From the NCBI RefSeq assembly GCF_002104995.1, contig NW_024468371.1, positions 1-29,566 of the forward strand: 29,566 bases of DNA, read 5' to 3'. How positions within the stretch are numbered: position 1 is the stretch's first letter; each line of letters starts with the position of its first letter. This stretch comes from Linderina pennispora (Eukaryota > Kickxellomycota > Kickxellomycetes > Kickxellales > Kickxellaceae). Positions 1-18,570 of this stretch are shown in pieces. Made by a program: the position numbers and the translations under genes. The notes beneath the pieces were generated by a model. It saw nothing but the letters and a program-made list of their open reading frames with translations, searched no databases and was not told the DNA's origin.

Positions 1-1
1 G

Positions 2-1511: not shown

Positions 1512-3245
1512 ATGGCGAACTGGGCAACACTGAGACCATATATTCTTCGGCGAATTGTTTATATACTCGACAACAGTAATCGCCTTATGAACCCTGACGA
1601 TGTTGACATCTATACTTCATTCCTCCAGCTTAACCAGATTTGCCAACACTGGAGAAACACTATAAAAGAGAGCCTCTACACTACTGCGATTATCTTGTGC
1701 CAAAAACCAACTGCTGAGCAAATGCTTCTATATGGCAGCATCTCTGATTCTGGCCAACTCGCATCCAGAGGCATCTACCTCGCAGCCTCATCACCACAAC
1801 CAATTCTTTGGAGAACAGACATCTCAAATATCATGCGATTAAAAAACAGCAACTACACTCAGCAACTTCTTATCTCATCTCGAGACTGTATCATCGATTT
1901 TCCTTCTCTTGGAGACATCCTCGAAACATTTGGATTCAGCACTGTCGAATGGCTTAGATTGGAAAAAATACTTTTTATTGGAACTCCACAGGTAGCAAAA
2001 CAGGATTCCGACACCAAACTCCCAATAGCTGACGATACCAGTAAGCGGCTGTCACAAACCTCACAATATTTTATAGAGCATACCCCTCATGTGAAACATT
2101 TGTGGCATAGAAAATCCGGATATCTATTGAATAATCCGCCAGCATTCCCACTTGGTGATATGTTGGACTTTTACTTGCCACAGCTGCGAACAATAGCTTT
2201 GTCCGATTTCACACTTCCAGAAATGAACCATAAATACTTTTCCTCATATCTCGCTAGGTTGGATCTTCAGATCAACAGTGAGAGTGCTGAGCGTCTCCCT
2301 AAAATATATGCACCCTCACTCGAGTATCTGAGCCTATATTATTCTGACACTCTACATTCATGGCACATCTTCAGAGGCTGCCTGCCTGGATCTGTTATCT
2401 TCGAAAACCTTACGGTGCTTGAAATCTATCACTATCCCGAGATATCTGAGTCAATAGATGAATCAGACGCATACCTTCCTTCTATATCGTTTCCAAAGCT
2501 GAAGGATTTACGATTACAATACTATCCATTCAACGATCCCAGCATCTTCGCTTTATTCAAGGACGCGCCAATACAGACTGCCACTATCGTTGATGCTGTT
2601 GATAGATTCCAACTCTCTGTGATAACCACCTTCAGAGATGTTCAGACTCTACTCATTTCCACAAGAAGCTGGAATACTAGTGTGCATGATGAAGCTGCGG
2701 CGTCTATTGCAAAGGGTCTTTTCGGCAAACCGTTCTCTACTTCCACCGCTGAAATATTTATTGACACAAGCCTACCAATCCCACTCCCTGATACGATTCT
2801 GTGGACAAAGTTAGAAAAAGTGTATCTTCAGTTTCCGGTTTATCTCTCCGATCTCATCGACATTCTCCCTCAGCTTCCTCATCTGCGCTGGCTTCTTGTC
2901 GGGGCCATATACAACACTGGAAATGTCATAGGAAATACAGAATCAGCACCCATTTGGAGCAGCACCCTTTCTCAGCTTATCCTATTTTCAAGTGTTATTC
3001 ATATCCCAACAGCCCCTTCTCTTGATGCAATGTGCACTTTAGTCTCTGGATTACCCTCCCTCCTCAAGCTGGTTGTTCCAGGTGATATGCTGTCCACGGC
3101 GAAAGAAGCACTTTCTGAACACGCTATTTCTCGAGGGTTTAGCGAAGGGATGGTTCAGATCGTTGGATACCTTCCAACAAGAACGATATTTTATCTTCGA
3201 AATGGTATTCCTTACACTGATAATCAAGGCAGCCGAATTGTATAA
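1512..3245 (+). CDS. F-box/LRR-like protein, intact tandem copy
   Basis: This is a 577-residue protein. I chose the ATG at 1512 (MANWATLRPYILRRIVYIL) because the frame further upstream opens only with a non-ATG codon. Residues of about 6-60 look like a divergent F-box: the pattern LRPYILRRIVYIL, then SFLQLNQICQHWRNTIKESL, resembles the helix spacing of F-box domains that recruit SCF ubiquitin ligases. The rest has irregular leucine-rich segments (LPKIYAPSLEYLSLYY, FPKLKDLRLQYYPF) as in F-box/LRR proteins that bind substrates. Codon use is AT-rich, unlike the GC-rich genes from 4.9 kb onward. A broken paralogue lies immediately upstream, so this is a local tandem family. The role as substrate adaptor is inferred from layout; no specific orthologue is recognised. 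Confidence 0.72.
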   Translation: MANWATLRPYILRRIVYILDNSNRLMNPDDVDIYTSFLQLNQICQHWRNTIKESLYTTAIILCQKPTAEQMLLYGSISDSGQLASRGIYLAASSPQPILWRTDISNIMRLKNSNYTQQLLISSRDCIIDFPSLGDILETFGFSTVEWLRLEKILFIGTPQVAKQDSDTKLPIADDTSKRLSQTSQYFIEHTPHVKHLWHRKSGYLLNNPPAFPLGDMLDFYLPQLRTIALSDFTLPEMNHKYFSSYLARLDLQINSESAERLPKIYAPSLEYLSLYYSDTLHSWHIFRGCLPGSVIFENLTVLEIYHYPEISESIDESDAYLPSISFPKLKDLRLQYYPFNDPSIFALFKDAPIQTATIVDAVDRFQLSVITTFRDVQTLLISTRSWNTSVHDEAAASIAKGLFGKPFSTSTAEIFIDTSLPIPLPDTILWTKLEKVYLQFPVYLSDLIDILPQLPHLRWLLVGAIYNTGNVIGNTESAPIWSSTLSQLILFSSVIHIPTAPSLDAMCTLVSGLPSLLKLVVPGDMLSTAKEALSEHAISRGFSEGMVQIVGYLPTRTIFYLRNGIPYTDNQGSRIV

Positions 3246-3805
3246 TACATCTAGGTGAAGTGGCTGTGGCAATAAATACTACATCATAAATAATTCTAGG
3301 TAGAAAACTATCTAGTGGCAGATTTAATTGTATTTTGTATTATCAAGAGTCTATAGGTTGACTGAGCCAGCCACGATTCCCTACCCTCCCAAAAGGCAAT
3401 CAAGTCCAGAGACAATTTACGCACTACCAGTGGACCTGCGTTACTGGCTATAATATCTCTGGTACCGATTGAACTGATGGGCAGCCTTCTATTACCGGTC
3501 CGTACGTTAACCTTTCAACCACATTACCAAGTTACTTGAATGTAGACAAATATACTACCAAAATTGAATAATGAAACTAAAAATGAATGGGTATATATCC
3601 GCTTATGTGCTGCACATAGCGGTTGAAAAAGGTAACTATGCCATTGTCTATCATCGGCACGGGAACTGCGTCTCCCGCAGCCCTATCGACGATGAGGATG
3701 AAAACTACAATCTAACATTTTAGTCAAAAAGGCGAATTCTATTCTAGACATCGTTACAAGGTATACAGATCAAAAAAAGTATGTATTATAGTCTTTTACA
3801 TGTCG
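3246..3805. other. AT-rich intergenic region
   Basis: The region begins with the conserved 3' flank of the F-box-like gene (gtggctgtggcaataaat, a likely poly(A) signal). Nothing else recognisable was seen up to the minus-strand zinc-finger ORF. Confidence 0.4.
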
Positions 3806-3982
3806 TTAGGAATGCCTCCATGGTGCGCGGGGGCAGAGGTGGTTTACATGGTAGATCATTGCCTCATCGTATCCGAACTTGTCCCCACAGTATGTGCACT
3901 TGTAGACCTTTCTAGCACCCCCTTCAGTGTGTACCTGCTGGGTCCTGTTATTCGATCGAGGCCAACGGAAACAGTAGGACAT
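3806..3982 (-). CDS. possible zinc-finger protein or gene fragment
   Basis: A 58-residue minus-strand ORF starts at the ATG complementary to 3980-3982 and stops at 3806-3808. It contains YKCTYCGDKFGYDEAMIYH followed by VNHLCP, a C-x2-C-x12-H-x3-H-x2-C arrangement that resembles a C2H2/C2HC zinc finger. The stretch just upstream (4000-4140, another frame) is also Cys-rich (VCTRCTYY, LHCYPSYCRF), so this may be the last piece of a longer gene broken by a frameshift or an unrecognised intron. It may bind nucleic acid, but that rests only on the finger. It could be chance; the spacing of Cys and His and the conserved-looking KCxYC start are the only support. Confidence 0.35.
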   Translation of the reverse strand: MSYCFRWPRSNNRTQQVHTEGGARKVYKCTYCGDKFGYDEAMIYHVNHLCPRAPWRHS

Positions 3983-4180
3983 TGGTTGCTATTCGAACTA
4001 GAGCTGAGTGTCTGCGGATTGAAACGACAATAGGAAGGATAGCAGTGTAGGCTACGCTGAGTCCATTTATACTGATCTGCAAGATACATCGGCCTGTAAT
4101 AAGTGCATCTTGTACAGACGTTCTTCTGCATCACAAAGGGTCGCCATGACTGCCAATATTGGTCACACAGCCTCAAATTC

Positions 4181-4916
4181 AGCCTTATCTGACATGATAA
4201 GTTTCAAATCACCACTGCATGTCTGAAATCAGGGGTCTTTTGAGGACATCGGCGGTGGTCGCCTGCATACTGGCTACACTGATACGCATCATGCTTGTCT
4301 TGGTCAAAACCTCAGTATAAAGTGTACTTTTGATACATAACAAATACAGCCGCCCTCCAGCCACAGCGTGTGCAGCTGAGATAAAAGGGCTAGCGAACCT
4401 AGCCCATCACGGCACAGCTTGGGTCAGGATATCTAAATTCACGTGATTTGTTTTCTGTAACTGTATCACAACCCGCTCTTTGCTGATAACACCAGTGTAT
4501 CTGTAGCTTATTCTCCGTTGCCTCTGAGCTTCAAACTCGACCAGGGACCCGCCACGTACTGGGCGTATCTCATGCGTTGCTGAGCAGGTGTACCAAGGGT
4601 GGCATCGGGTCCAGCCCCAGGCGATCTGGCCAGCTGCACCATTGATCCGATCAAGAGCAGACTTGCAATTATTGCGTTTGCAGGATTCCCGGCCACGATG
4701 CACTTTATAGCGATTTGCGCTTACGAACACGCTATTTTGCTGTTTTCCTGCCAGCCCCTAGGCCGACTACTACGCGACCTGCAAAGCTCCTTGTTTGTGG
4801 CTGTTCAAACAGCTGCCGAGCCGTTTCTCTTCGCTGCTTTCCCCACTCCCAAACTTTTCAGCCATTTTTATCCCCTCTTGCCTTCTATTGTACCCTGTCA
4901 AACCCCCTGGGAGAAA
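4181..4916. other. intergenic; upstream region of the 4.9 kb gene
   Basis: No gene is supported. Composition shifts from AT-rich to GC-rich at about 4.5-4.6 kb. A pyrimidine-rich stretch (about 4820-4910) precedes the next start codon, as is common for leaders in this window. Overlapping ORFs on both strands are mutually exclusive and unremarkable. Confidence 0.4.
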
Positions 4917-6129
4917 ATGGCCATGGTACCGGAGACAGCGCATTGCTGGATTTGCGGGGTGTTTGTGGAGGGTATTGGCGACCTCTACAGCTCCGTGGAG
5001 TTGAAGACGTGGAAGGAGAAGATGCCCGAGGGCTGCGACCCCGCCAAGTGTGGACACGGTAAGAGGTTTTTTTTACTCGGGCTGGACCAGCTTCCTATTT
5101 TTGCTGGCAATCAGGCCCCGCGTTCTAGAATGGCAGAGAAAAGCATGCAAAAATGCAGCGGCCTTGATTTCCTCTTGATGTTTATGGATTGTAGACGTCA
5201 GCATCTTCCGTATCTGCGCCAGCGAAATGTACACCGAGCAGATACGCTTCCTGAATGTGTACAGCGGGGTCAGCCCGCGCAACCACGGCTGCTACACCGA
5301 CGGCCCGGGCGGCCTGGTGTTCATCGATGACGACCCTGTGTTTGCCGAGCACGAGCTCAGCATCATGTGTGCGAGCGAGATGACCGAGGAGTACAACAAG
5401 CCGCTGGCCATGAGCGTGGGCGAGGCGGCAAATGAAGTGACCGACATTCTTGTTGTCGTGGTCCATGATATGTGCCTGGAGATGCTGACGGCAGAGCTCG
5501 ACCGGCAAAGGATCCCGTGGACATACCGCGGGATTTTTGCGAATGCATGCGACAGCGGCAAGCATGTAATGGATCTGGACGTCGACGTTCCGGGGCTGGA
5601 GCGCAGCGAGACCGACAAGGTCAAGGAAATCCTGCTCAACGACGAAGAGTACAATGTGTCGGACCTGTGGATTATCTCGAGCCCCAAGTACGCGCCGGCG
5701 CCAGTCTATCTACAGCCCCACGAGAACCCGCGGGAGGTATTCAAGACCGTCGACTCGCAGGAGAAGTCGCAGCTGCTGAGCCTGCCGCCAGAGATGCTGG
5801 AGCTGGTTATGAGCTACCTGGACGAGGAGTCGCTGATCAGCATGGGCCTGTCGTGCAAGAAGGTGGCCAATATGCCTGGGTTTTGGCGGTGGATATTCCT
5901 TGCTACATTCAAAATCGCCAGCGCCAAGGGCTGGATCGACTGGCACCAGTACTACCGGCGCGCGCTGCGGTTCCGCCTGAACTTTATGAGCCGCGCGCGC
6001 ATCACCGGCGTTGTGCGGCACAACATCGCCCAGTACGACTCGTGGTCGCGCCAGCTCAGCACCGAAGCGCTGGAGTTTGCCGATGGGTTCCTGGCACACT
6101 ACGGCAAGACGATCGAAGACTACTGCTGA
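4917..6129 (+). CDS. F-box domain protein, one intron (5059-5194)
   Basis: Exon 1 is 4917-5058 and exon 2 is 5195-6129; joined they encode 358 residues. The intron starts GTAAGA and ends TTGTAG, and the join restores one frame (AKCGH then DVSIFRICASEMYTEQ). The N-terminus has a CWICG motif and a CDPAKCGH motif, a possible small zinc-binding unit at about residues 9-48. Residues of about 244-285 form a good F-box (LPPEMLELVMSYLDEE, then SLISMGLSCKKVANMPGFWR), so the protein probably binds Skp1 and acts as an SCF ubiquitin-ligase adaptor. The middle region (about 60-235) is not recognised. An alternative ATG lies two codons downstream. Composition is GC-rich and unlike the F-box-like genes at 1-3 kb, so it is a separate family. 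Mdm12 follows 103 bases after the stop on the same strand. Confidence 0.8.
5059..5194 (+). other. spliceosomal intron in the F-box gene
   Basis: This 136-base GT-AG intron has donor GTAAGAGG and acceptor GGATTGTAG. It holds in-frame stops that would otherwise truncate the protein after the CGHG motif. Removing it joins two ORFs with a consistent 358-residue product. Confidence 0.75.
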
Positions 6130-6232
6130 GCCAACCCCAAAAGTCAAATACACGCCGCCCCTGAAACCGCCGCACGCCCCTCTCTTTGCTCCAGCCGCTT
6201 CCCTTTTCCGTCCTAATTTCTTTATTTTAACA

Positions 6233-7246
6233 ATGTCGTTTACAATTCACTGGGAGAAGCTGGACAAGAAGGTTGCGCAGAGCATCCAGCTGCAGCTCAA
6301 CAGCTTTTTTGCGCGGCTAGAGAAGCGGCCGGTGTTCCTGGGCGACATTACAGTCGAGGGTCTCGATTTCGGCAGCACACCGCCCGACATTGAAATTCTC
6401 GACCTGACCGAACCCTACCCAGAATTCTACATGGCCACAGAGGAAGAGGAGGAGGAGGAGGACGCAGAGAGAGAATCAGACGTGGCGATGCAGCGGATAC
6501 AGGTCATGCCGGCATCGCAGACCGGTAGCAGAATGTTCCAGAGCCAAGGGCTGCGAGGTGCATCGACATCAGTAGCTGCAGCCGACAGCGATTACCAGGA
6601 TATCGATGACGACCTCGAGTCGGTGTTGAGCGGGCTTCCAGACCGTCCGATATCGCAGGCGTCGATTCAGCAGTTCCTGCAGCCGCCTATGGGCTTGCTT
6701 CGAACCGGATCAATGACTCCAGGCACCAGGATCTGGCAAAGCCCGTCGCTGTACTCGGCACAGACAATGCCACGGACCTCCCTCCAGCAACAACAGCAGC
6801 AGCGCATGTCACTCGGTACCAGCACATTTTCAAGTGCCATGCCGCACCGGATCGCTGTGGAGCGGACTGACGATGACATGCAGCTGCTAACCAAGCTCGA
6901 ATACAAAGGCGACATGTCGCTGGTGCTGAACACCGAGTTGCAGCTCAACTACCCGGCATCGCAGTTTGCGAGTCTGCCAGTCACAATGCACATCACAAAG
7001 ATCGAGTTCTCGGCGCTGGCCGTGGTCGCGTACTTAAAGGGCCGCATCAACTTTTGTTTCCTGGAGCCCGAGCCGCCACGCACCAGTCTGCTGGACAACT
7101 TTTGCATTCGCACTGAGATCGGCGACCAGCACCACCATGTACTTAAAAATGTCGAGAAGCTGGAGCTGTTCATTACCGAGCACCTGAGAAAGGCTATTGA
7201 CGACGACTTTGTCTTTCCGTGCTACCATTCATTCGAGCTGGAGTGA
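6233..7246 (+). CDS. MDM12: Mdm12, ERMES complex subunit
   Basis: This is a 337-residue protein. The N-terminus MSFTIHWEKLDKKVAQSIQL, then FLGDITVEGLDFGSTPPDIEILDLTEPYPEFY, is the characteristic start of the Mdm12 SMP domain, including the PPxIEI turn. The C-terminal half (LVLNTELQLNYPAS to CYHSFELE) is the second part of the SMP fold and ends at the usual family end. Mdm12 bridges Mmm1 (ER) and Mdm34/Mdm10 (mitochondrial outer membrane) in the tether that moves phospholipids between the two. Between the halves lies a low-complexity insert with an acidic Glu run (about residues 70-80) and a Gln run (about 185-190), typical of Mdm12 outside yeasts. The ATG at 6233 is preceded by an A-rich context (ttaacaatg) and a pyrimidine-rich leader. 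Confidence 0.93.
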   Translation: MSFTIHWEKLDKKVAQSIQLQLNSFFARLEKRPVFLGDITVEGLDFGSTPPDIEILDLTEPYPEFYMATEEEEEEEDAERESDVAMQRIQVMPASQTGSRMFQSQGLRGASTSVAAADSDYQDIDDDLESVLSGLPDRPISQASIQQFLQPPMGLLRTGSMTPGTRIWQSPSLYSAQTMPRTSLQQQQQQRMSLGTSTFSSAMPHRIAVERTDDDMQLLTKLEYKGDMSLVLNTELQLNYPASQFASLPVTMHITKIEFSALAVVAYLKGRINFCFLEPEPPRTSLLDNFCIRTEIGDQHHHVLKNVEKLELFITEHLRKAIDDDFVFPCYHSFELE

Positions 7247-7963
7247 TGACGTAGAGAATGTATTTACCTAGAGGACTTTTAATACCACCGACACCCTCTT
7301 CCGCCGATGCATAGAGTACAGGTGCACTGGCGGTCGGGCTTCGCGATGCTAGTGTCTGGGAACTGCATCCTGCCTGGGATAGCTAGGGATTTGGTGGAGG
7401 CTCTAGGGAATGGTGTACGTTGTAGAACAGATACCAGCGACAATAGGTCCATTGCCACCTGAAGCTCGCTTAGCCGTGTCGGCAAGCTGGCTCGCACATG
7501 CAACTAGAGGCACGAACCGTCCACATTTCCGTTGCTAGATGAATTGGCCCAGCTGTGCTTGTGCTTTGTGAAAGCCGGAAAGGAGACGCGCTGCCAATTA
7601 ATGTGTGGCATCCTATGCCTTGCGACCATCATCGACAACCACAGGCATAAGCGCATGCCTAGTGCCCACAGAGGATCTAATCGCATATCGTAATCTACCG
7701 ATCGACCCTGGCCGGGTTTCAATTGGAGCCTTTTTGCTGTGGACCGCCCGCTATTTACCCAATAGCCCGCCATTGAAGTGGGAGACCTCGCTGTTACCCA
7801 TTGTGAAATTAAAAATTCACACAATTACACCGCCAATACGGCACAATAAGACCACACGGGTGCAGCCGATGTGTAGGCCCAGAGTATACTTCAAAAATGT
7901 ATCCCCCCCATCTTCGAGAAGGCTACACAGCGCCTTGTCCGCCAGGAGAGGGCTCAGCCCAAC
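7247..7963. other. intergenic, upstream of the peptide array
   Basis: No gene is supported. Minus-strand ORFs here (7279-7503, 7504-7824) show no domain-like content. The 12-mer TGCCAATTAATG at 7592-7603 recurs exactly at 9247-9258, upstream of the third peptide copy. A CACAATTA element at 7820-7827 with a nearby GCCAATAC resembles CACAATTG/GGCAATAC upstream of copy 3. Confidence 0.4.
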
Positions 7964-7970
7964 TATAAAA
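7964..7970 (+). promoter_or_regulatory. TATA box of peptide copy 1
   Basis: TATAAAA, 115 bases before the copy 1 ATG. The same box recurs 98-132 bases before copies 2, 3 and 4. Confidence 0.65.
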
Positions 7971-8078
7971 GACCTGGCCACAGGACTCAGAGGGAGGGTC
8001 GAGACACAATCGACAAGCCCCTCTTCTCCATACCAGAATCCACTACCTCCCCTTTGCCAGCACAGCAAGATCAATACC

Positions 8079-8174
8079 ATGAACGCCTACGTCGCCATCG
8101 CAACCGTTGCCGTCCTCTTCGCTGCCACCATCTCTGCAGCTCAGGCCCAGGTCGTCGGTGGTGGTCCCTGGTAA
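8079..8174 (+). CDS. secreted mini-peptide precursor, copy 1 (31 aa)
   Basis: The ORF encodes 31 residues: MNAYVAIATVAVLFAATISA, then AQA and the C-terminus QVVGGGPW. Residues of about 3-20 are a hydrophobic core and AQA at 21-23 is a good signal-peptidase site, so the predicted product is the secreted octapeptide QVVGGGPW. It has no Cys, no dibasic Kex2 site and no CaaX box. It is the first of five tandem copies (8.1-11.5 kb) with the same length, frame and ending, while the flanking DNA has diverged; synonymous differences among copies support coding selection. The longer frame extending upstream is not used, because it runs back through the TATA box. Caveat: the last codon and stop read TG|GTAAAT, a possible splice donor, so this could be exon 1 of a longer gene. 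N-terminal Gln could cyclise to pyroglutamate. Function is unknown. Confidence 0.65.
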   Translation: MNAYVAIATVAVLFAATISAAQAQVVGGGPW

Positions 8175-8863
8175 ATGCCACGGCCACAACCCTGTTATTA
8201 GCTCTGTATATTAGCGAATACGACCGTATCTACCCAATATAATTCTATACCTTAAAGCCTAAGGCTTCTGTGTCAGTAGTTTGTCAATTGGAACTATGTT
8301 CCCAAGCAGTACCAACTGTTGCTAGGTAATGGCATTGTGTTTTACATAAACATTTGCTGCCAGCAGTCTACAGGATGATGTGTGTCGTTTAAGCCATCTT
8401 CAGGACTATCACAGCAGAAATGAATTTTCGGTCAAGCAGAGCTGTTCAGCGCATGTCGACACATGTATTGGAAATGCAAGCGTGTAGGATTGGTTGGCGT
8501 TCCCTACAAGTGTGGGCTCTACGCACACCATTCTACACACATCTCTTTCATATTTGGCCCACCAAGATAGGGCTAGCCTTCAGTATGCGGGGGAAGAGCG
8601 CAGCTGGTGTTTTTGAAGGACAGCGATTGGCGCTGAAAATCATGGTGGCCCCGGTTATTACAGCCCAATTGCCCAGCGGATACTGTTCATACAATAAAAC
8701 TCGGGTGCTATTGTAGAAATACAATTACAATTCAGATAGGAAACGGCACTATGTGCGCAATTGTACAGCTCAGCTTGAATCGTGCGTGCTATTACATCGT
8801 TAGAGACTCCCTCCGTAGCCTCAGACGCCTGTGGAGACTGGGTCAGCATGATCTTGTTCCAGC
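8175..8863. other. intergenic between peptide copies 1 and 2
   Basis: No gene is supported. A 98-residue ORF (8420-8716) shows no secretion signal or recognisable motif. An aataaa at about 8692-8698 could be a poly(A) signal. CAATTGTA at 8758-8765 lies about 105 bases before the copy 2 TATA box. Confidence 0.35.
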
Positions 8864-8870
8864 TATAAAA
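8864..8870 (+). promoter_or_regulatory. TATA box of peptide copy 2
   Basis: TATAAAA, 98 bases before the copy 2 ATG, in the same context (agcTATAAAAg) as copy 1 (aacTATAAAAg). Confidence 0.65.
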
Positions 8871-8910
8871 GCAGAATAGACTTGTTGTTTGTTGGAGTAG
8901 AACATCATCA

Positions 8911-8934
8911 AACAGCAACAGCAACAGCAACAGG
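8911..8934 (+). repeat. AACAGC microsatellite in the copy 2 leader
   Basis: Four tandem hexamers of AACAGC type (the last ends in AACAGG) lie between the TATA box and the ATG of copy 2, so they fall in the predicted 5' UTR. Confidence 0.8.
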
Positions 8935-8961
8935 TTCTAGCCCCTCTACAAGCACTTCCTC

Positions 8962-9054
8962 ATGGCTTCCACTGCTATCGCTACTGCCGCTGTCCTCTTC
9001 GCTGCCCCCATCTCTGGTGCCCGGGCTCAGGTTGTCGGCGGTGGTAGCTGGTAA
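8962..9054 (+). CDS. secreted mini-peptide precursor, copy 2 (30 aa)
   Basis: The 30-residue ORF reads MASTAIATAAVLFAAPISGA, then RA and QVVGGGSW. The signal-peptide core (AVLFAA) is identical to copy 1 and the cleavage site is ARA, which would release QVVGGGSW. Compared with copy 1 the mature peptide has one change (Pro to Ser), while codons for Val and Gly differ silently. It is shorter than most ORF-length cutoffs and overlaps a longer, unrelated frame (8882-9103) that has a low-complexity Ser/Thr/Pro/Leu composition and should not be preferred. As in copy 1, the end reads TG|GTAAAC, which could be a splice donor. No second exon with clear coding content was found before copy 3. Confidence 0.62.
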   Translation: MASTAIATAAVLFAAPISGARAQVVGGGSW

Positions 9055-9792
9055 ACATTACTGCGATTACCTCATCAGGACAAGAGCGCTTCATGTATAC
9101 TAGACCGTTGACAAAATATATATCTTAATATATCATTATCTCACTCGACCAGCCATGCTATTCATGTGTGTGGAATTGTGTATAGGTACACATGTTTCTT
9201 TCGCAGCTGGTTGCAGTGTGGTGCAAAAGCTACTTTCAAAGGATAATGCCAATTAATGACCATTCGTGCGCATGTTGCTTAGGATGTAAAGCGAGTTATC
9301 AGTATTTACTAGGCGGCACTCGTGTTGGACATGATGCTAACTTTTAATCTTGCTTGAGGGACTAATTCAGCAGCCCAAGCCAAGCACCCTGGAATACTTG
9401 TTTGCAAAAGCATTTCTGTTTACTCCCAGTGCCAGTTGGTGCAAATGCAGCTCCTTTGTGGTGCCCGGTATTGCCCACCTGACCATCCCCAAGTATCTCA
9501 TTGAAATCATGACAGATGAATAGTAAGCGGCTGTGATGATAGAAATTCTAGGGATCAGCGCAGAAAACCAGCACGCTCCAGTTCCGACTCTTGATCACAA
9601 TTGCTAATTTGGCAATACAAGGTCGCCTATTGTAAAAAAGACAGTACCCACATCAGCGCAATAGCGACTATTTAGACAGCGCTTGCTTCAATAAACACCG
9701 ATTGTGGTCAGTGGTCCCATTGGGGCTTTTACAACAAGCGGTCGCTGTTGCAGACACTAGGTGCTGTAGGCCGTGGTAGCGCCCCTTTCTCA
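9055..9792. other. intergenic between peptide copies 2 and 3
   Basis: No gene is supported and no long ORF is present apart from a short minus-strand frame at 9668-9871. It holds the 12-mer TGCCAATTAATG (9247-9258) shared with the region before copy 1, and CACAATTG at 9597-9604 followed by GGCAATAC. Confidence 0.4.
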
Positions 9793-9799
9793 TATAAAA
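9793..9799 (+). promoter_or_regulatory. TATA box of peptide copy 3
   Basis: TATAAAA, 132 bases before the homologous ATG of copy 3 and 114 bases before an earlier in-frame ATG. Confidence 0.65.
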
Positions 9800-9924
9800 G
9801 GCCACATCGCTGGCACTCCAAGAAACTGGCAAAACCACATAACTATTCCACTGCACTTTGAAGAAACTCACTCTCTAGAAACAACCTCAGGGTCTCTCTG
9901 TCACTGATGCTCCAAGAAACCAAA

Positions 9925-10020
9925 ATGAACACCTCCATCGCTCTCCCTACTGTCGTCGTTCTTGTCGCTGCCGCCATTTCTGCTGCGCAGGCGCAGGTTG
10001 TCGGCGGTGGCCCATTCTAA
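9925..10020 (+). CDS. secreted mini-peptide precursor, copy 3 (31 aa)
   Basis: The 31-residue ORF reads MNTSIALPTVVVLVAAAISA, then AQA and QVVGGGPF. It differs from copy 1 in the signal core but keeps the AQA cleavage site and the mature peptide except that the final Trp is Phe, so the aromatic C-terminus is conserved. It ends in TTC TAA with no GT, so the splice-donor reading possible for the other copies is not available here; this argues that the stop codon is the true end. An in-frame ATG at 9907 (MLQETK added) would be the first start after the TATA box; I chose 9925 because its length and alignment match the other copies. Confidence 0.65.
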   Translation: MNTSIALPTVVVLVAAAISAAQAQVVGGGPF

Positions 10021-10372
10021 ATACTTTACAAACGATTTTATATGGTGCACCGCACACAGCTGTACATTAAAACTATATTTGAAGTCCAAAGTACATAGCA
10101 TGGTGATGGCACATTTGTGCGACATATGCATGTCAATGATGGCAAAGCAAGCCAGATTAAACCGACTTGTAGCGTCTCAGTGACAGGTAGTGGGAGGATG
10201 AATAGCAATCCTTGACCAGATGCAGTGCAAGAAGGGCTGTTGCAGAATGAGGTCAGCAGTGGTGCCAATTCTGATTATATGATTGAAAACGGTGTTGAAG
10301 GTATGACCAAATGCACGAGTACAGCTGTTTCTCACTCGAGAGGGCAAATTCTATGCGGGAGTTGACACCATC

Positions 10373-10379
10373 TATAAAA
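10373..10379 (+). promoter_or_regulatory. TATA box of peptide copy 4
   Basis: TATAAAA, 107 bases before the homologous ATG of copy 4 (98 before an upstream in-frame ATG), in the context tcTATAAAAaag. The promoter is kept although the reading frame has two stops. Confidence 0.6.
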
Positions 10380-10479
10380 AAGGGTGTGAGTGCTGGGTGT
10401 ATATGAAGGACAAGGTTCCCTTCAGGAAAGATTCCTTCAAACCCCTCAAACTCCTGTTCACACAATCACAATGTTTACC

Positions 10480-10572
10480 ATGAGCGCTTCTATCGCTGCG
10501 ACATAGATTGCTGTCCTCTTTGCTGCCACTATCTCCACTGCTCAGGCCTAGATTGTTGGCGGTGCCTGGTGA
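10480..10572 (+). pseudogene. secreted mini-peptide copy 4 with two in-frame TAG stops
   Basis: The frame runs MSASIAAT-stop-IAVLFAATISTAQA-stop-IVGGAW, then TGA. Its length (31 codons with stop) and signal core (AVLFAATIS) match copies 1 and 2, with no indels. The TAG at 10504-10506 interrupts the signal peptide. The TAG at 10549-10551 replaces the conserved CAG codon for the first residue of the mature peptide, a single C-to-T change. An in-frame ATG at 10471 would add three residues. The last codon and stop read TG|GTGAGC, a strong donor-like sequence. The likeliest reading is a young pseudogene; read-through or RNA editing is possible but has no direct support. Confidence 0.6.
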
Positions 10573-11239
10573 GCACGATCGCTGTCCTTTTTTGCATTCT
10601 ACTCTTATACATACCATCCTACTATGAGCTGGCATTATAAGACAGGTACTCTAAGCCTGTCAAGCTAAACGTAGCCCTGTTATGGACGGTGTCGCCATGT
10701 AACCATGACGAAGAAATGGACAGGTGCAGTCTAGGTTCCACATAGTGGTCAACACTGAATCTGAAACTAGCTGGAAGCAGGTTCCATGTGTCATCCAGTG
10801 CATGCGTCGTACACGCACACCTGTTGTTTCTATTTCGCAAAATAGAGTTGGTGGTGTGGTCTCCAGCATTGTCAACTTGCCACTTGTGCAGTGACACCAC
10901 CCATGCTGTTTTTTTTTTTGCAAGACAGGGCGTATGCGTTGCGAGCGGAAAACAGAGATCTACTCGAGAAAACCAATCATGCTCCAGCCTCAAAATCGCA
11001 CAATTGCCCAATCCCATCCCTTTTTAAATTGCAAGCGCAGCCGAATGGTTGTTGCGAGAGACGTAATTGCAGCACGGAGAGAGAGCAATTGGCAACGGTA
11101 CAAAATAGCCTGATTTTCAATAGCCGGCAACAAGGGCATTCTGAATGCCATTGAGATGTGGGCGGTTGAAATTTTAATAAAAAGCAGGCCAGCACTCTGA
11201 CACGCATGCTGTGCACGCGGAAAGCGTCTGTTGCGTGGG
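10573..11239. other. intergenic between peptide copies 4 and 5
   Basis: No gene is supported. ORFs on both strands around 10.6-11.3 kb overlap one another and show no domain-like content. CACAATTG at 10999-11006 and a CAATTGGC at about 11088 lie upstream of copy 5. A T-run lies at 10908-10918. Confidence 0.4.
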
Positions 11240-11246
11240 CATAAAA
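11240..11246 (+). promoter_or_regulatory. TATA-like box of peptide copy 5
   Basis: CATAAAA, one base off the TATAAAA of the other copies, 120 bases before the position homologous to their start codon. Confidence 0.45.
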
Positions 11247-11359
11247 GGACAGATTTGTGGCAGACACAAAAGTCCAAAACCAGCTATAGATACGGCGGTC
11301 TCCAGCAGCAACAGACTAAGCCTTTTGCCGTTCGCAGGCATCCCTGGTCGTTTACAGGA

Positions 11360-11455
11360 AGGAATGCCTCTGCCGTCATCACAATTGCCGCTGTCTCCCT
11401 CGTCTCGACCACCACTGCTGCTCAGGCGCAGGCTGCTGCTGGTAGGATGTGGTGA
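11360..11455 (+). pseudogene. secreted mini-peptide copy 5, start codon lost (ATG to AGG)
   Basis: In the frame ending at TGA 11453-11455 the sequence reads (R)NASAVITIAAVSLVSTTTA, then AQA and QAAAGRMW. The span is exactly 96 bases, the same as copies 1 and 3, and the first codon is AGG where they have ATG; AAT GCC follows, matching copy 1 (AAC GCC). The AQA cleavage site and C-terminal Trp are kept, while the mature peptide has diverged (QAAAGRMW against QVVGGGPW). The ATG at 11363 is out of frame and opens an unrelated Pro/Leu-rich ORF. A longer in-frame extension upstream runs into the TATA-like box and has no ATG. This is probably a dead copy, or one that uses a non-ATG start. Confidence 0.55.
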
Positions 11456-12136
11456 ACCAGCTGCGCTGTTATACGCTTCGGCGCCTTGCTGTACAATATA
11501 CGACATGATGATACAAAAACCTGTATTTCGGGGAATTATTTTTATTGTAGTGATGTGTTCTATGATACTTTTGAGGGGGTGGGTAGCATGCAGGTGAAAA
11601 AAGGGGGTTCAGCATGACCGGCCGCTGGTGCACAGGGCACATGAGCATTCTCTGTCGCAGGAATCAGCGCTTGAGTGCATTTTTGGGTGGTGGCAGGCAC
11701 GTAGCTCGGGGGAATATAGAACAGAGGGCGGGAGGGAGGGAGCGAGAAAGAAAGTTGCTTGCACCGATAGCTATTTAGACGAGCGAGCATGCTGGGAGCC
11801 ATGCTTAAGTACCTGGCGAGCCAGGGCACACCTCACCCGTGCCACATTGCGTGCCTCCCCAAACCCATGCACCCCTCCGGCGCCTCTTCGCTCAGCACTG
11901 GGTCTAGGAGTAACATTTTAATAAGGCCATAACGGGAAGTGCGAACGCTAAGGAGCGTTTGAAATTGGGGGTTGAAGAGTGTCAAGAAAGGGAATACCGT
12001 TTCGTGCGGATTGTCTTGCATTTATAATGCATGCGCCAGAAAGAGACAGAAGAAAGGGAGGCTTAGTACAGGCGATTCACAGCCCATTCACAGTCAACTA
12101 AAGGGTCAATCGGGTAAACGGATGGTGGTTGTCTTG
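11456..12136. other. intergenic
   Basis: No gene is supported. It contains a GGGA-repeat stretch at about 11728-11745. ORFs on both strands (11560-11829 minus, 11628-11921 plus) overlap and lack recognisable features. Confidence 0.4.
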
Positions 12137-13075
12137 TCAGTCTAAATCTTTGAACTCGGCATCCTGAACACGCCTCTTTGCGTGTTTTTCAGACCGGCCA
12201 GCTGTCTGTGAATCGTTGAGGACATCCAGTTCCAGCTCGACAATCTGGTCGTTCTCGGTTTTGGCCAAAAGCCACACTTTTGCCTCTTTCACGTCATCCT
12301 CGACCTGGCCAGTGACACGGAGAAAGACGTGTGTCGCCTGGTTGTCGGCAAACACTGGGAAAATCGCTTCAATATCGGTCCTTTGTTTGCCAGACGAGGA
12401 GCTGACGGACGATGACGACGAGAACTCGAGTGGCTCGCCCAGAGAGACAGCTGATCCGGCGCCAATCAGATCCCGTACCTGGGGATCAACCTCGTAGGCT
12501 GCCAGAACCGCGTCTTCGGCCAGGCCTCGCAGCAGGGTGGCTGAGGGGCGTGTGCTGCTGAAGATGGAGAAGGGCGCCAGCCGCTCGATCGTCTGCTTGA
12601 TGTACGACACGACGTCGCCCAGTGGGCCCTTGCCGCTGCTGCCGTGCATGCCGCTCTCGTGCAGCACGCGGTTTATCTCCCGCGCAATCATCAGCATCCG
12701 GAAGCCGCGGTAGAATGCAAAGCCGATGCCGCCCAGAATAACGAGGCGGATCATCGGCCATGCCACCACGACAAGCGCAATTCCCCCGGCTGTATACAGC
12801 GCCGGCTTGAGCCACGGCACGGGGCTGTTGTTGGGCTTATAGTGCGGTCGCCGGTCAAACGGGTCGCGCTGGTCGCTATAGTACGTGCGCTTCTGGCCCG
12901 GATCGGCGGGTGCCCAGGGCTTGCTAGCAAGCACTACTGGTCTTGGTACTGGTGCGAGTGCCGACCGGCAATGCAGACTGGCAAACCTGCGCACGAATAC
13001 TGAGCGCGGCATACGCGCAATTGCGGGCGACAGCCCAATTCGAGGCAGGGGTCGACAGCACGTTGCAGTAAGCAT
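12137..13075 (-). CDS. putative mitochondrial membrane protein
   Basis: This is a 312-residue protein. The first 60 residues (MLTATCCRPLPRIGLSPAIA and on) are rich in Arg, Ser and Ala and nearly lack acidic residues, as in a mitochondrial targeting sequence. Residues of about 88-122 form one long or two short membrane segments (LKPALYTAGGIALVVVAW and MIRLVILGGIGFAFYRGF). The C-terminal half has a Ser-rich linker (about 218-230) and then a beta-rich stretch (ATHVFLRVTGQVEDDVKEAK, VWLLAKTENDQIVELELDVL) that reads like a small folded domain facing one side of the membrane. The architecture (presequence, membrane segment, soluble domain) is like inner-membrane import or assembly factors, but I do not recognise the family. 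Its start region is divergent with the RPEL gene across about 305 bases that must hold both promoters. Confidence 0.72.
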   Translation of the reverse strand: MLTATCCRPLPRIGLSPAIARMPRSVFVRRFASLHCRSALAPVPRPVVLASKPWAPADPGQKRTYYSDQRDPFDRRPHYKPNNSPVPWLKPALYTAGGIALVVVAWPMIRLVILGGIGFAFYRGFRMLMIAREINRVLHESGMHGSSGKGPLGDVVSYIKQTIERLAPFSIFSSTRPSATLLRGLAEDAVLAAYEVDPQVRDLIGAGSAVSLGEPLEFSSSSSVSSSSGKQRTDIEAIFPVFADNQATHVFLRVTGQVEDDVKEAKVWLLAKTENDQIVELELDVLNDSQTAGRSEKHAKRRVQDAEFKDLD

Positions 13076-13380
13076 CGGTAATAAAAAAAAGTGTGGAAAA
13101 CTTGGTAGCAGCGGAGACGATGAGCGGCCAGCTGGCCCAAGCAGCTTCAGGCCAGCACGGCGCAGTTTTCTCCGCGATAATCCCGAATCTGATTACTAGG
13201 GCCTGGGCGGCGATGAGGTCATTCGCCGCCTTCGCATGGCAGTGGTATAAACACACTTGGCATGTGCAGGTGCCAGTGGGCCATTTGCAGCAAGCCGTGT
13301 GTTTTTTCTTCACTCATCCACAGTTTTGCTTGCTTTATACTTTACAAGACACCCCTCTCACCCCTCTCACCCCCTGAACC
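13076..13380. promoter_or_regulatory. shared divergent promoter region
   Basis: This 305-base gap separates divergent genes. A TATAAAC at about 13247 could serve the plus-strand RPEL gene (about 135 bases before its ATG). A short direct repeat of CACCCCTCT lies just before that ATG (about 13350-13375). Confidence 0.4.
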
Positions 13381-13749
13381 ATGAGCACCGAAGGATACTC
13401 CCAGGCCACCGCCGACCAGCTTGCTCGGAAGCTTGAGCACCGTCCCACGCGCGAGGAGCTCGAGGCCGCCAACGTCCTCAAGAAGAGCACGGTTGCCCCG
13501 GCACTGCAGGCCAAGCAGGTCGAGCTGGACCGCAACCGGCTCGAGGACAAGCTGGCCAGGAAGCTGGAGAACCGGCCCACGCGCGAAGACCTCGAGAACA
13601 AGCACGTCCTGCTGGACCACAAGGTCGCGCCCGGACTGCAGGTCAAGCAGGAGGAACTGAAGCGAGCCAGGATTGCCGACGACCTGAGCAAGAAGATCCA
13701 GGCGCGCCAGTCGCCGGAGCAGCTGCGCGAGCAGCATATTCTGGAATAA
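13381..13749 (+). CDS. three-RPEL-repeat protein
   Basis: This 122-residue protein is almost entirely three RPEL motifs spaced about 44 residues apart: DQLARKLEHRPTREELEAAN (about 12-31), DKLARKLENRPTREDLENKH (about 56-75) and DDLSKKIQARQSPEQLREQH (about 100-119). In animals, RPEL motifs bind monomeric actin through the R-P-x-x-E-L core. In repeat 3 the core is degenerate (RQSPEQL in place of RPTREEL). Linkers between repeats are also repeated (VAPALQAKQVEL and VAPGLQVKQEEL). Actin binding is inferred from the motif and has not been shown for this protein. It is a single exon and ADAT1 starts 116 bases downstream on the same strand. Confidence 0.85.
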   Translation: MSTEGYSQATADQLARKLEHRPTREELEAANVLKKSTVAPALQAKQVELDRNRLEDKLARKLENRPTREDLENKHVLLDHKVAPGLQVKQEELKRARIADDLSKKIQARQSPEQLREQHILE

Positions 13750-13864
13750 AGCATCTCCAGACCTTCCATAGTTGTATTGTTTTCTCCTGTTGAACTTTTA
13801 GTTTGGGAATATTGTAAACCCACCCGCTGGCGCTATTCTGGCCATCTACTTTCAAAATACCGAC

Positions 13865-15040
13865 ATGGATACGAGTGCTGCGGACCAGATAGCGCAGTGC
13901 GTGATTGACCAGTACAACCGGCTGCCGAAGAAAGGCAAGCCGGCGACAAAGGCGCCGGGCAAGGATGAATGGACGGTTCTGGCCGGCATTGTGTTCGAGA
14001 CCCGCAATGCCAGCAAATACGAGTGCGTTGCGCTGGGCACGGGGCTAAAGTGTCTGCACATGCAGCAGCTGAGCAAATTTGGTGACAGCGTTCACGACAG
14101 CCACGCCGAAGTCATCGCCCGCCGCGCCCTCGTTGTATATCTAGCCGAGCAGCTGCTGCTGTGCAAGCAGGACAAAGACTCGATATTTGAGTCGCAGGAC
14201 GGCCGGTTTAAAGTCAAGGAGAGCCTGGGACTGAAGGTCCATTTGTACACGTCGCAGAGCCCATGCGGCGACGCGACTGTCGAGCACCTGCAGACAGCCC
14301 AGGACAAGGCGGAGGATAGCGAGCCGTCGGCCAAACGCCGCAAGGTGGGCGATGGCAGTGTGATTCGGGGCCATCAGAAATTCACAGACACTGGGTCACT
14401 GCGCCTGAAGCCTGGGCGCGCAGACTCCATCCCGACCACATCCATGTCATGCAGCGACAAAATCGCCCGCTGGAATGTGCTTGGGCTACAGGGCGCCTTG
14501 CTGGCGACCCTGATCCCGCCCATGTATCTGGCCAGCGTCGTTGTCGGCGAGCTGTTTACGGAATCGTCGGTTGACCGTGCCCTGAACAGACGTGTTGCAG
14601 GTGTCATTGGGCTGCCAGAGGCGTATCGGGCAAACACATGCCAGGTCCTGCACACGACAGTCGACTTTGCCCGTGGCCAGGCAGTAATGAAGAGCCTGGC
14701 TGCGGAGGCCATTACTGCAGACGCATCGGTGTGCTGGTACAGAGGCGCTAAGGCTTCGGCGGCCCTGGTCAATGGGCGTCGCCAGGGCGCCAAGGCCAAG
14801 AAAGGCGTCTGCCAGCCAGCCAACCTGTGGCCAGACATTTGCAAGGCCGCCATTTTCAGAAAGCTCAGCCCGCTGGTCTTGGGCGACAAAGAGGCGGTGT
14901 CTTACAGGCAGGCCAAGGACAGGGCCGTCGACTACACCGCAGCCAAGGGTTGCTTACTTTCAAAGCCGCCGTTCACCGCGTGGGTAAAGTGTCCTGACGG
15001 TCACGAGGGGTTCGACGTGACAGGCACGCTACTAGTGTGA
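13865..15040 (+). CDS. TAD1: tRNA-specific adenosine deaminase 1 (ADAT1/Tad1)
   Basis: This 391-residue protein has the A_deamin catalytic domain, which converts adenosine 37 of tRNA-Ala to inosine. The zinc ligands and proton shuttle are visible: H and E in [12 protein letters not shown] (about residues 77-88), the first Cys in SQSPCGD (about 133-139), and the second in [15 protein letters not shown] (about 196-210). N-terminal VLAGIVFE and [21 protein letters not shown] are typical of the family. Length matches Tad1-type proteins without double-stranded RNA-binding domains, which separates it from ADAR. The ATG at 13865 follows the RPEL stop by 116 bases. A single exon with no defects was seen. 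Confidence 0.92.
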
Positions 15041-15080
15041 CTTATAATACAGCATTCTATTGGTATCCAGAACTGTACGG

Positions 15081-15686
15081 CTACTGCTGCTCAGGCCGAG
15101 CATCTGTGCTATCCCCTGCCGACTCCTCCTTTGGCTTCTTTCCGTAGCCAAGCGCCGCGCGCATCCGGGCACCAAGCGACATGCGCTTCTTTGCTGGTCC
15201 GTCCGCATCTGCCTCCGCCGCGTCGTCCGACCCAACCATCGACTTTATCCTCGCAAACCTGATTTTCGGCTTGCCCGTCACCTCGTCTCGCTCGAAAAGC
15301 TTGTCGTCCATCCGCCGCAGCTCCTCCTCCTCGTCCTTATCGCTAATCCCCATGCGCTCCTTCATTGATGCTCCGAGCATCTGCTTCATGCCGTTGCGCA
15401 TGCGCTCCGAAAACAAAGTCGTGGACTGCACTTCTGTCGATTTAAGGTAGTAGTTGCCCAGCGCTGTGCCAAAGCCAACCACGGAGAATGCGTACAGCGT
15501 GCCTAGCCCAAATGCCTTCATGGCGACGTTGGCTGTCATGTCGTCGCCAGCGATCCTGGCCGTCTTGGCTGCCCGCCGGTGTGCGATCGCAACTGCTGTC
15601 AGAAGCGCACCAGTAGCGCCCACACCGAGCGTTGCCATGAACAGCTTTTGTTCTCTCTGCTGTCTAGCCCTCTCTGCGCTGGCCAT
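15081..15686 (-). CDS. TMEM242-like mitochondrial membrane protein
   Basis: This 201-residue protein has two membrane segments: FMATLGVGATGALLTAVAIA (about 16-35) and MKAFGLGTLYAFSVVGFGTA (about 56-75), the latter matching the LRALGWGSLYAW-type signature of TMEM242. TMEM242 in animals is a mitochondrial inner-membrane factor in ATP synthase c-ring and complex I assembly. The fungal protein has an extra charged C-terminal tail (about 110-201; EEEELRRMDDKLFERDEV, then basic KKRMSLGARMRAALGYGKK) not found in the roughly 140-residue animal proteins. The gene converges with ADAT1; the two stops are only 40 bases apart, so their transcripts may overlap at the 3' ends. Family assignment is from motif memory. 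Confidence 0.7.
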   Translation of the reverse strand: MASAERARQQREQKLFMATLGVGATGALLTAVAIAHRRAAKTARIAGDDMTANVAMKAFGLGTLYAFSVVGFGTALGNYYLKSTEVQSTTLFSERMRNGMKQMLGASMKERMGISDKDEEEELRRMDDKLFERDEVTGKPKIRFARIKSMVGSDDAAEADADGPAKKRMSLGARMRAALGYGKKPKEESAGDSTDARPEQQ

Positions 15687-16090
15687 TCTAACTTTTTATA
15701 GGTGTAGTTTGAATTGAAGAAGGTGTGTAGAAGAAAGGTAGCCGAGATAGAAGCTGCCAAGAGTCCTTGCTAGTTTTTTTTTTTTTTTTTTCGGATAAAA
15801 AAACACTCTTGCTGCTGAGCCATGTAGCTAATCAGTCCGCGAGCCGGTTGCAGCAGATCAGCGGCTCGCAGGTTCCAGGAACTGAGCCGGCAGAGCCCGC
15901 ATAGCGGAGAAGCAGCTTTCCATTGGCACCATCTCGCTACATGAAGACATTGCAGACATTGCAGACGCTCTGCTGTCAGATGTGAGCAGTGCTCTCTTGA
16001 GTAGACCACCCATGACAGAGTACGAGTGGGGATGTATTTGTCACATGAGCTAAGCGGTGGTGCATTGTCAATACGCATTATGAAAGTCAT
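15687..16090. other. intergenic with long poly-T tract
   Basis: This is the presumed promoter of the minus-strand TMEM242-like gene and the 3' region of the next minus-strand gene. An 18-base T run lies at 15774-15791 and a tandem GACATTGCA repeat at about 15946-15963. No gene was seen. Confidence 0.45.
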
Positions 16091-16579
16091 TCAGGAACAC
16101 TCCTGGTCGCAGGAATCATCGCCGGTCTCCGTGCCCATGAGCTCCTCATTGGGAATAGACATTTCGATCAGTGCTTTGCGAGCAAGTGTTGGCGCGTTAA
16201 CAGGGTTTGTTCCCAGAATACTAGCCTGCAGAAAGTCCAGCACCATGCGCTCTTCGCGGAACAGCTTGCACTTGGCCTTCAACTCCACACCAGTGGCATC
16301 CAGCATAGCCAGTATATGGCTGTATTTCTGCTTGTAGCGGCTGATGACCTCTTCGTCGCATGTGCTGTACACTATTTTCTTGCGTAGCCTCTTCGACATG
16401 CTCTTGAACCCTCGCATATCCTCGCTCAGCGCAGCTATACTGGTGTGATACTCGACGATGAGTGCTGTGGACGCCATGGTATCGTGGATGATCTTGCGCT
16501 TGTTTATGTCCTCTTCTATATCCAGAAGACTTGCGTAGTCCAACGACATGTTCTTGTAAATCCTGGCAATGGAGGTCAT
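16091..16579 (-). CDS. small helical protein of unknown function
   Basis: This is a 162-residue protein if started at 16579 (MTSIARIYKNMSLDYASLLD), where the ATG has a good context (CAAAAATGA on the minus strand). An in-frame ATG at 16639 would add 20 residues. The sequence is mostly helical, with a basic heptad-like stretch (MSKRLRKKIVYSTCDEEVIS) and a middle coiled coil up to FREERMVLDFLQASILGTNP. The combination of coiled coil and a late 'hydrophobic, short gap, A-L' segment faintly recalls CENP-H/Fta3-type kinetochore proteins, but I do not claim it. It has no signal peptide or membrane segment. Composition is normal, so it is likely a real, fast-evolving gene. Confidence 0.6.
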   Translation of the reverse strand: MTSIARIYKNMSLDYASLLDIEEDINKRKIIHDTMASTALIVEYHTSIAALSEDMRGFKSMSKRLRKKIVYSTCDEEVISRYKQKYSHILAMLDATGVELKAKCKLFREERMVLDFLQASILGTNPVNAPTLARKALIEMSIPNEELMGTETGDDSCDQECS

Positions 16580-16877
16580 TTTTGTCTTTGGGATGTTTTG
16601 AGAGATACGGCAGGAAGGGAGAAGGAATCGGATGCTCACATAGCACGCAAAGCTACCAAGATGGCGTTTATATGCGGTCTTGGATCGTTTTTATCATTGC
16701 CTCTTGCCCATTAGCATCTACGCAGTGATGCATCTTGTATCACTGTACATGCAGAGCATCAACTCCAATTGACTGGCACGAGCACCTGAACAATATTATT
16801 GAGCTACAACATCAATCTAGCATATATTCTACTTGCTCCCTCAGCAGCAGCACTATTGGTAGCACCACCTCGTCTCC

Positions 16878-17366
16878 TCACGTCTTGGCAAACATCTGCG
16901 TCCAATATAGACTGTGTTCGCCGAAGCCAACAATGTTATAGTCACCTAGCATGTTGCTGAGGTGCATCGGGCTGTGAATCCAAGCGGTCATGACCTCACC
17001 AACACTTTGCTGGTCGTGTGCGACATTTTCAGCAACCCCACGCCATTCAATGCCGGCTACACTGGCCCTGGCACCGAGAGTGCCGGCTGGGTCATCGTGC
17101 GTCATCATTCCCGAGGAAAACTGGTAATCCGAGTGTCTCTGGGCAGCCGCATTGAGACGGTAGTCCATGATCACCGGAGACTTGCCACGCTTTGCTCGCT
17201 CCTGGTTTAGAATGGCGAGCATCTGGCCGCGCCAATTAGAGGCAAGGCGGCTAGAACCTTCTGGTGCCGGTGCTTTTGCTGCATAGGTGCTGGCTTTCTC
17301 GCCAAACACCTGGTCAAGCAAAGATACAAGCAGGGCTAGAATAAACAAATGCCTGATATATGTCAT
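16878..17366 (-). CDS. secreted CAP/SCP (PR-1) domain protein, copy 1
   Basis: This 162-residue protein starts at 17366 with a signal peptide (MTYIRHLFILALLVSLLDQV, then FG). Upstream in-frame residues are judged to be leader. The CAP domain fills the rest: WRGQMLAILNQERAKRG, LNAAAQRHSDYQFSSGMMTH, then AGIEWRGVAENVAHDQQS, MTAWIHSPMHLSNMLGDYN and IVGFG near the end. The conserved CAP His and Glu residues (AQRHSDYQ, MTHDDP, AENVA, WIHSPMHL) are all present. Fungal CAP proteins are secreted and several bind sterols or lipids; the ligand here is unknown. A TATA-like run (atatatatat, 17461-17470) lies about 95 bases before the start. A frameshifted paralogue lies 545 bases upstream on the same strand. 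Confidence 0.87.
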   Translation of the reverse strand: MTYIRHLFILALLVSLLDQVFGEKASTYAAKAPAPEGSSRLASNWRGQMLAILNQERAKRGKSPVIMDYRLNAAAQRHSDYQFSSGMMTHDDPAGTLGARASVAGIEWRGVAENVAHDQQSVGEVMTAWIHSPMHLSNMLGDYNIVGFGEHSLYWTQMFAKT

Positions 17367-17460
17367 TGTCTGTTGACTGTTTCTCCAAGTTGGTAGCACT
17401 GTAGGAAAACTGAAATGCATAATGCTAGTTTTAAAAATGGATGAGGGGCAAGAGACTAGC

Positions 17461-17470
17461 ATATATATAT
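17461..17470 (-). promoter_or_regulatory. TATA-like element of CAP copy 1
   Basis: An AT dinucleotide run about 95 bases before the start codon of the CAP gene at 16878-17366, the spacing also seen for TATA boxes of other genes here. Confidence 0.5.
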
Positions 17471-17480
17471 TGACATCCAA

Positions 17481-18427: not shown

Positions 18428-18570
18428 CTGTATGTAGTGGCGATTATGTCAGCTAAGAGTGCAGCAGCGATTCCTACATGTTACAAAATGAATTCGTTGG
18501 GAGGTCTAGTGCATAGGTTGGGATGAGAGGAGCTGGGGTATCCCGGACTATTGATAGGCATACGCCTTAC
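18428..18570 (-). other. probable leader intron of CAP copy 2
   Basis: On the minus strand, AAG|GTAAGG at 18570 and ACATACAG|ATGG at 18428 form a good GT-AG pair 143 bases apart, with CTGAC-like branch sequence near the acceptor. A TATATATA run at about 18656-18666 lies upstream. The reading frame also stays open across the join from an ATG inside that TATA run, so a longer N-terminus cannot be excluded. Confidence 0.45.

Follow-up and report, generated by a model that had tools for sequence, protein, structure and literature searches.

We describe here a tandem array of very short genes in the soil fungus Linderina pennispora (Kickxellales), the intact members of which encode a signal-peptide-like segment followed directly by an octapeptide of the form QVVGGG(P/S)(W/F). 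The array lies on contig C28, the whole of which (29,566 bp) constitutes our window, in a genome analysed as 26.17 Mb in 222 contigs. Positions 1-26862 of the window align to 773.5-800.0 kb of the 1.73-Mb contig C112 (1,730,256 bp), with an identity of 91.5% over 1-1154, 93.3% over 1370-10732, and 98.3% over 10853-26862; the alignment ends at 26862, and the final 2.7 kb of the window lie outside the compared stretch of C112 (760-800 kb). Given this identity of 91-98%, C28 is the second haplotype of the C112 locus, so that the assembly holds two versions of the locus and each copy in the array has an allele. A stretch of approximately 130 bp near window 10730-10855 is present in C28 and absent from C112.

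An earlier, sequence-only reading of this DNA had placed five genes on one strand within 7964-11455. Five copies do lie there, all on the + strand and each where it had been placed, but only three are intact, in both haplotypes, and the other two are relics, as that reading's own use of the word "intact" had implied. Copy 1 (8079-8174; 31 codons) reads MNAYVAIATVAVLFAATISAAQA and then QVVGGGPW-stop, with its mature part at 8148-8171; copy 2 (8962-9054; 30 codons) reads MASTAIATAAVLFAAPISGARA and then QVVGGGSW-stop (mature part 9028-9051); and copy 3 (9925-10020; 31 codons) reads MNTSIALPTVVVLVAAAISAAQA and then QVVGGGPF-stop (mature part 9994-10017). These are the octapeptides that had been anticipated, and translation yields the same three from the window and from C112. 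In the window haplotype only, copy 3 has an additional in-frame ATG 18 nt upstream (9907-9927). Copy 4 (10480-10572), which is one codon shorter, carries TAG at the position of Gln-1 in both haplotypes, with a further in-frame TAG in the window haplotype. In copy 5 (11360-11455), both haplotypes have AGG at the position of the start codon, and the open stretch offers no in-frame ATG farther upstream; the frame ends QAAAGRMW in the window haplotype and QVAGGRMW in the other. A repeat finder independently returned five copies of an 82-nt unit (80, 74, 65, and 65% identity to copy 1), and the sequence between copies shows no DNA similarity beyond chance, in agreement with the earlier observation that the coding parts are alike and the intervening sequence is not.

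A fourth intact gene stands outside the array

Pattern and protein searches of the whole genome recovered one further intact gene, unlinked to the array, at C1:2822293-2822376 (below, the C1 gene), which reads MNAYTAVLVIAAVAAAASA and then QVVGGGPW-stop. It adjoins an F-box gene and stands outside any array. Its mature residues are identical to those of copy 1 at 8/8 positions, whereas the signal parts are alike in 10/19 aligned residues; an octapeptide that stays fixed while its signal part diverges argues that selection acts on the octapeptide.

The whole-genome search with copy 1 gave ten matches among the ten candidates scored, with expectation values (E) of 1.5e-13 to 0.029: the three intact copies and the copy 4 relic in both haplotypes, the copy 5 relic in C112 only, and the C1 gene. 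Between paralogues within the genome, E-values fall as low as 3.5e-8. A first sequence pattern produced 337 matches at up to three mismatches, compared with 158 for its backward control; nine of the 20 matches that were translated belong to the octapeptide family, and in the other 11 no signal peptide is visible by eye. A second pattern produced 347 matches at up to two mismatches, compared with 309 for its control, and its seven exact matches are the three intact copies in two haplotypes and the C1 gene.

Intact precursors hold one octapeptide behind a signal-peptide-like segment

In all four intact genes, A-x-A is followed by Gln and seven further residues up to the stop, and residues 1-6 of the octapeptide are identical throughout. 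At the level of sequence, the proposed architecture of a signal-peptide-like segment ending in A-x-A plus an octapeptide is thus sound. The same is true of the claimed lack of Cys, dibasic sites, and repeats: the four intact precursors contain no KR, RR, or KK, no Cys or C-terminal CaaX (the ends being -PW, -SW, and -PF), and only one octapeptide per open reading frame (ORF), with no repeat of its core.

We scanned 109.6 kb, made up of the window and its counterpart on C112, the region of the C1 gene, and two further stretches, for ATG-to-stop ORFs of 24-40 codons, which we call mini-ORFs. Ten of the 360 found satisfy a simple rule for signal peptides and leave 5-12 residues past the cleavage site, and half of these ten belong to the octapeptide family. 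Copies 2 and 3 and the C1 gene pass the rule; copy 1 falls outside the count, because an in-frame ATG upstream makes its mechanical ORF longer, and was judged from its sequence.

The octapeptide is conserved and codon choice is biased

Within the mature part, the proportion of silent differences (pS) exceeds that of replacement differences (pN) in all six comparisons among copies 1, 2, and 3 and the C1 gene (for example, 0.62 vs 0.11 between copies 1 and 3, and, in the weakest case, 0.29 vs 0.24 between copies 2 and 3). Between haplotypes, 0 of the 81 bases of mature part plus stop differ, compared with 38 of 772 in six flanks of 124-135 bp (p 0.017); over the whole ORFs there are four silent and five replacement changes, and all five replacements fall in signal parts. 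Together with the identical octapeptide of the unlinked C1 gene, these comparisons, all drawn from the two haplotypes and the paralogues of a single genome, bear out the suggestion that purifying selection acts on the peptide.

Codon adaptation was measured against a 356-codon exon of the same genome that we take, from its sequence motifs, to encode EF-1A. Copies 1, 2, and 3 and the C1 gene score 0.63, 0.50, 0.42, and 0.51, respectively, compared with 0.21-0.30 for five ordinary genes of the window and a mean of 0.18 (maximum 0.47) for the 355 other mini-ORFs, of which 0, 0, 2, and 0 reach the values of the four genes in that order. The decayed copy 5 still scores 0.32. With mitochondrial EF-Tu as the reference, the four intact genes again score higher (0.66-0.80) than the five window genes (0.36-0.49). 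Such codon bias is typical of strongly translated genes, as is well established for fungi, and the EF-1A-like codon choice thus makes the intact genes look strongly translated. We regard them as almost certainly real genes.

Intact genes share a TATA box and an upstream motif

The sequence-only reading had noted a TATA-like box 98-132 nt before each start, and for the intact copies such a box is indeed present: TATAAAAG occurs on the + strand at 7964-7971 for copy 1 (-115 from the ATG), at 8864-8871 for copy 2 (-98), and at 9793-9800 for copy 3 (-132). The C1 gene has the same box at -103, so that all four intact genes carry it between -98 and -132; the background frequency of TATAAA is 0.30-0.37 per kb on the + strand of two regions.

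We counted every 5-mer across the 300 bp preceding each of these TATA boxes, four sequences without detectable similarity to one another. The top 5-mer, ACAAT/ATTGT, occurs 3, 5, 3, and 5 times before copies 1, 2, and 3 and the C1 gene, giving 16 in total compared with 2.5 expected, and no 5-mer as extreme appeared in any of 200 sets of four stretches drawn at random from the genome. None of 1000 dinucleotide shuffles reached 16 occurrences of ACAAT/ATTGT and one had any 5-mer as extreme, although this control is somewhat lenient, since high scores also go to other 5-mers, ACAGC among them; among overlapping 300-bp background windows matched for GC content, 13 of 672 hold at least three occurrences. 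The base preceding ACAAT, which lies outside the original 5-mer count, is a pyrimidine (C or T) in 15 of the 16 sites, compared with 84 of 161 elsewhere (p 0.0005).

The resulting (C/T)ACAAT elements number three before copy 1 (7800-7847, with cores starting at 7800, 7821, and 7843), five before copy 2 (8691-8764; 8691, 8710, 8721, 8727, and 8760), and three before copy 3 (9597-9705; 9597, 9629, and 9701), and the decayed copies 4 and 5 hold none and one. Across the three array promoters, 0 of 55 bases in motif cores differ between alleles, compared with 41 of 845 other bases (p 0.065). The core recognized by high-mobility-group (HMG) box proteins, among them sex regulators, is quoted as A(A/T)CAA(A/T)G (PMC3730723, in part), and (C/T)ACAAT fits the inner five bases of that core; the ends fit poorly, the first base being C or T in 15/16 sites and the last being G in only 2/16. 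With these promoter parts in common, the four intact genes look jointly controlled.

Other features of the locus and genome

Window 1-3284 contains large ORFs of approximately 600 and 200 residues that resemble each other, the 600-residue one having no Pfam match; similar stretches occur in C112 at 772-777 kb, and the group looks like a local tandem family. An ORF of 122 residues at 13381-13749 contains three RPEL repeats, which are actin-binding motifs (Pfam E 1e-21), and adjoins a gene resembling transfer RNA deaminases; the protein encoded at 13865-15037 has 99% identity to a deposited L. pennispora adenosine deaminase. Two CAP-domain ORFs stand in tandem on the - strand at 16878-17480 and 18012-18332; the shorter of the two scores below the family cut-off and is possibly a fragment or an exon. 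No RNA families were found in window 7300-12100. On contig C208, the single candidate for the STE2 receptor (E 0.001 in the six-frame search) was rejected as an Aa_trans amino-acid transporter (L033:706-2034); its weak match to the STE2 profile (E 0.0004, below the cut-off) is a trap for receptor surveys.

A proposed secreted signal and its alternatives

From the computed ORFs, the conservation and codon bias that they show, their TATA boxes, and the upstream motif they have in common, we infer a sequence of events that would comprise expression, cleavage, pyroglutamate formation, secretion, and signalling. Each gene would be driven by a TATA box of its own, 98-132 nt ahead of the ATG, and by the (C/T)ACAAT cluster farther upstream, and its single short ORF would encode a signal peptide plus eight residues, the product of which would enter the endoplasmic reticulum. 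Signal peptidase would cut after A-x-A and leave QVVGGG(P/S)(W/F) without further processing, in a secretion route independent of Kex2 and of prenylation; judging from the precursors, a secreted octapeptide released by signal peptidase is likely. Its N-terminal Gln would most likely close to pyroglutamate, and the peptide is probably N-terminally pyroglutamylated; in secreted fungal peptides, an N-terminal Gln can become pyroglutamate with or without the aid of an enzyme (PMC9769878, in part). The octapeptide would then act extracellularly and most likely convey a signal among hyphae of the same fungus, in self-sensing or in sexual contact. Our best explanation of the locus, which we favour with some confidence, is a family of minimal peptide genes, three in the array and one unlinked, that would secrete a signal octapeptide. 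The signalling role as such seems somewhat better than an even prospect. The apparent strong translation, one element shared by several promoters, and a constant core of six residues ahead of a variable end are better suited to an extracellular ligand than to a bulk product.

Several points weigh against this explanation. The signal parts have no positive charge near the N-terminus, which makes cleavage plausible rather than certain, and a search limited to the Glu_cyclase_2 type gave no glutaminyl cyclase (controls were positive in 3/14). A six-frame search for STE3 gave no match, with no control genome positive, so that absence is not shown; beyond the transporter described above, the STE2 search gave no receptor, again with no control genome positive. 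The three mature peptides are identical in the two haplotypes, which weakens the case for an allele-specific mating identity; such identity between haplotypes is compatible with a pheromone common to both or with a self-sensing signal. The conservation evidence covers this one genome only, and within it the allelic identity of the mature part, taken alone, is weak evidence (p 0.017) and that of the motif weaker evidence than for the mature part (p 0.065). Finally, the (C/T)ACAAT motif was chosen after looking at the data, and longer words are weaker, the best 6-mer being matched by 1/200 random sets and the best 7-mer by 12/200.

Among other explanations, the octapeptides might be secreted without being signals, as antimicrobial, surface-active, or matrix peptides made in bulk. 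The implied high output and the several gene copies, which raise the dose, would suit a bulk product, and the sequence carries no mark of a "ligand"; nevertheless, we consider this unlikely, as the octapeptide is uncharged beyond its termini and has no Cys, unlike known antimicrobial peptides, and the identity of residues 1-6 across the four intact genes better suits a specific binding partner. It is more improbable still that the products are uncleaved, single-span membrane microproteins whose conserved tail serves as a membrane-anchored epitope. Small membrane microproteins are common in fungi, and the hydrophobic, alanine-rich segments here lack a basic n-region, but the run of hydrophobic residues is short, every one of the four intact genes retains A-x-A ahead of Gln, and it is the hydrophobic part that varies most (10/19 alike between copy 1 and the C1 gene) while the tail is fixed (8/8). 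The two dead copies among five might suggest that the ORFs arose by chance or are the remains of a dead family, but this has next to no likelihood in view of the paralogue E-values, the unlinked intact copy, the codon bias, and the common promoter parts.

The possibility that these ORFs are only the first exons of longer secreted proteins, which the sequence-only reading had itself raised, turns on whether the Trp-stop junction is in fact a 5' splice site (G^GTAA or G^GTGA, the caret marking the cut). TG^GTAA does stand at the stop of copies 1 and 2 and the C1 gene, and TG^GTGA in relics 4 and 5, and short introns occur in fungal genes; however, such a donor look-alike arises automatically from any Trp before TAA or TGA, and copy 3, which ends TTC-TAA without a donor in both haplotypes, is conserved all the same. 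The 800 nt downstream of the stops show no similarity between copies except where the segment following copy 3 overlaps that following copy 4, and the best frame-translated match (E 0.002), which pairs sequence following copy 1 with sequence following copy 4, contains one and five stops and falls in the promoter regions of copies 2 and 5. A protein database that includes at least one deposited protein of L. pennispora held no match at E <=10 at approximately 25-79 residues (148 candidates) or 55-175 residues (one candidate), lengths above 175 residues not having been tested. These results disfavour the first-exon explanation, and we judge it very improbable.

Should the explanation as a secreted signal hold, these could be the first peptide pheromone or self-sensing genes from Kickxellomycotina, their octapeptides made from the shortest secretory precursor possible and released by signal peptidase only, under a dedicated transcription factor working through the (C/T)ACAAT clusters of all four intact genes, and with the three C-terminal variants PW, SW, and PF as a small vocabulary; this fuller picture is tentative and somewhat doubtful.

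Relation to known peptide systems

Surveys confined to Kex2 repeats or to longer proteins would overlook genes of the octapeptide type. With subscription literature outside coverage, the string QVVGGG was not found in any paper, and the literature on Kickxellomycotina, L. pennispora, and Coemansia included none about peptide signals, as judged by titles and the beginnings of abstracts. If the octapeptide is a signal, it is directly testable with three small synthetic peptides, and the same architecture can be searched for in every fungal genome.

Kex2-processed repeat precursors, including those of the alpha-factors, are a known route to secreted peptides in fungi and are present in early-diverging lineages (PMC6339444, in part), and several KEP peptides have an N-terminal Gln converted to pyroglutamate (PMC9769878, in part). 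The octapeptide genes resemble KEPs and alpha-factor pheromones in the signal peptide route, the short linear peptide, and the N-terminal Gln (pyroglutamate being predicted for the octapeptide), but they have no dibasic sites, repeats, pro-region, or STE13 dipeptides, and encode one peptide per gene.

Like the genes for a-factor-type CaaX lipopeptide pheromones, the octapeptide genes are very short and occur in several copies; unlike them, they have a signal peptide-like segment and no C-terminal Cys or CaaX. Cyclic fungal ribosomally synthesized and post-translationally modified peptides (dikaritins and MSDIN peptides) are likewise short ribosomal peptides in families, whereas the octapeptide genes lack leader or follower recognition sequences and Kex2 repeats, and a Pfam scan of 14 window ORFs recognized no tailoring enzyme. 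The arthropod adipokinetic hormone/red-pigment-concentrating hormone shares with them an octapeptide placed right after the signal peptide, an N-terminal Gln, and a Trp at position 8, but the fungal genes have no amidation Gly, dibasic site, or trailing peptide, and most other residues differ; this likeness is probably a coincidence. The octapeptides may represent a fungal peptide signal of a new kind.

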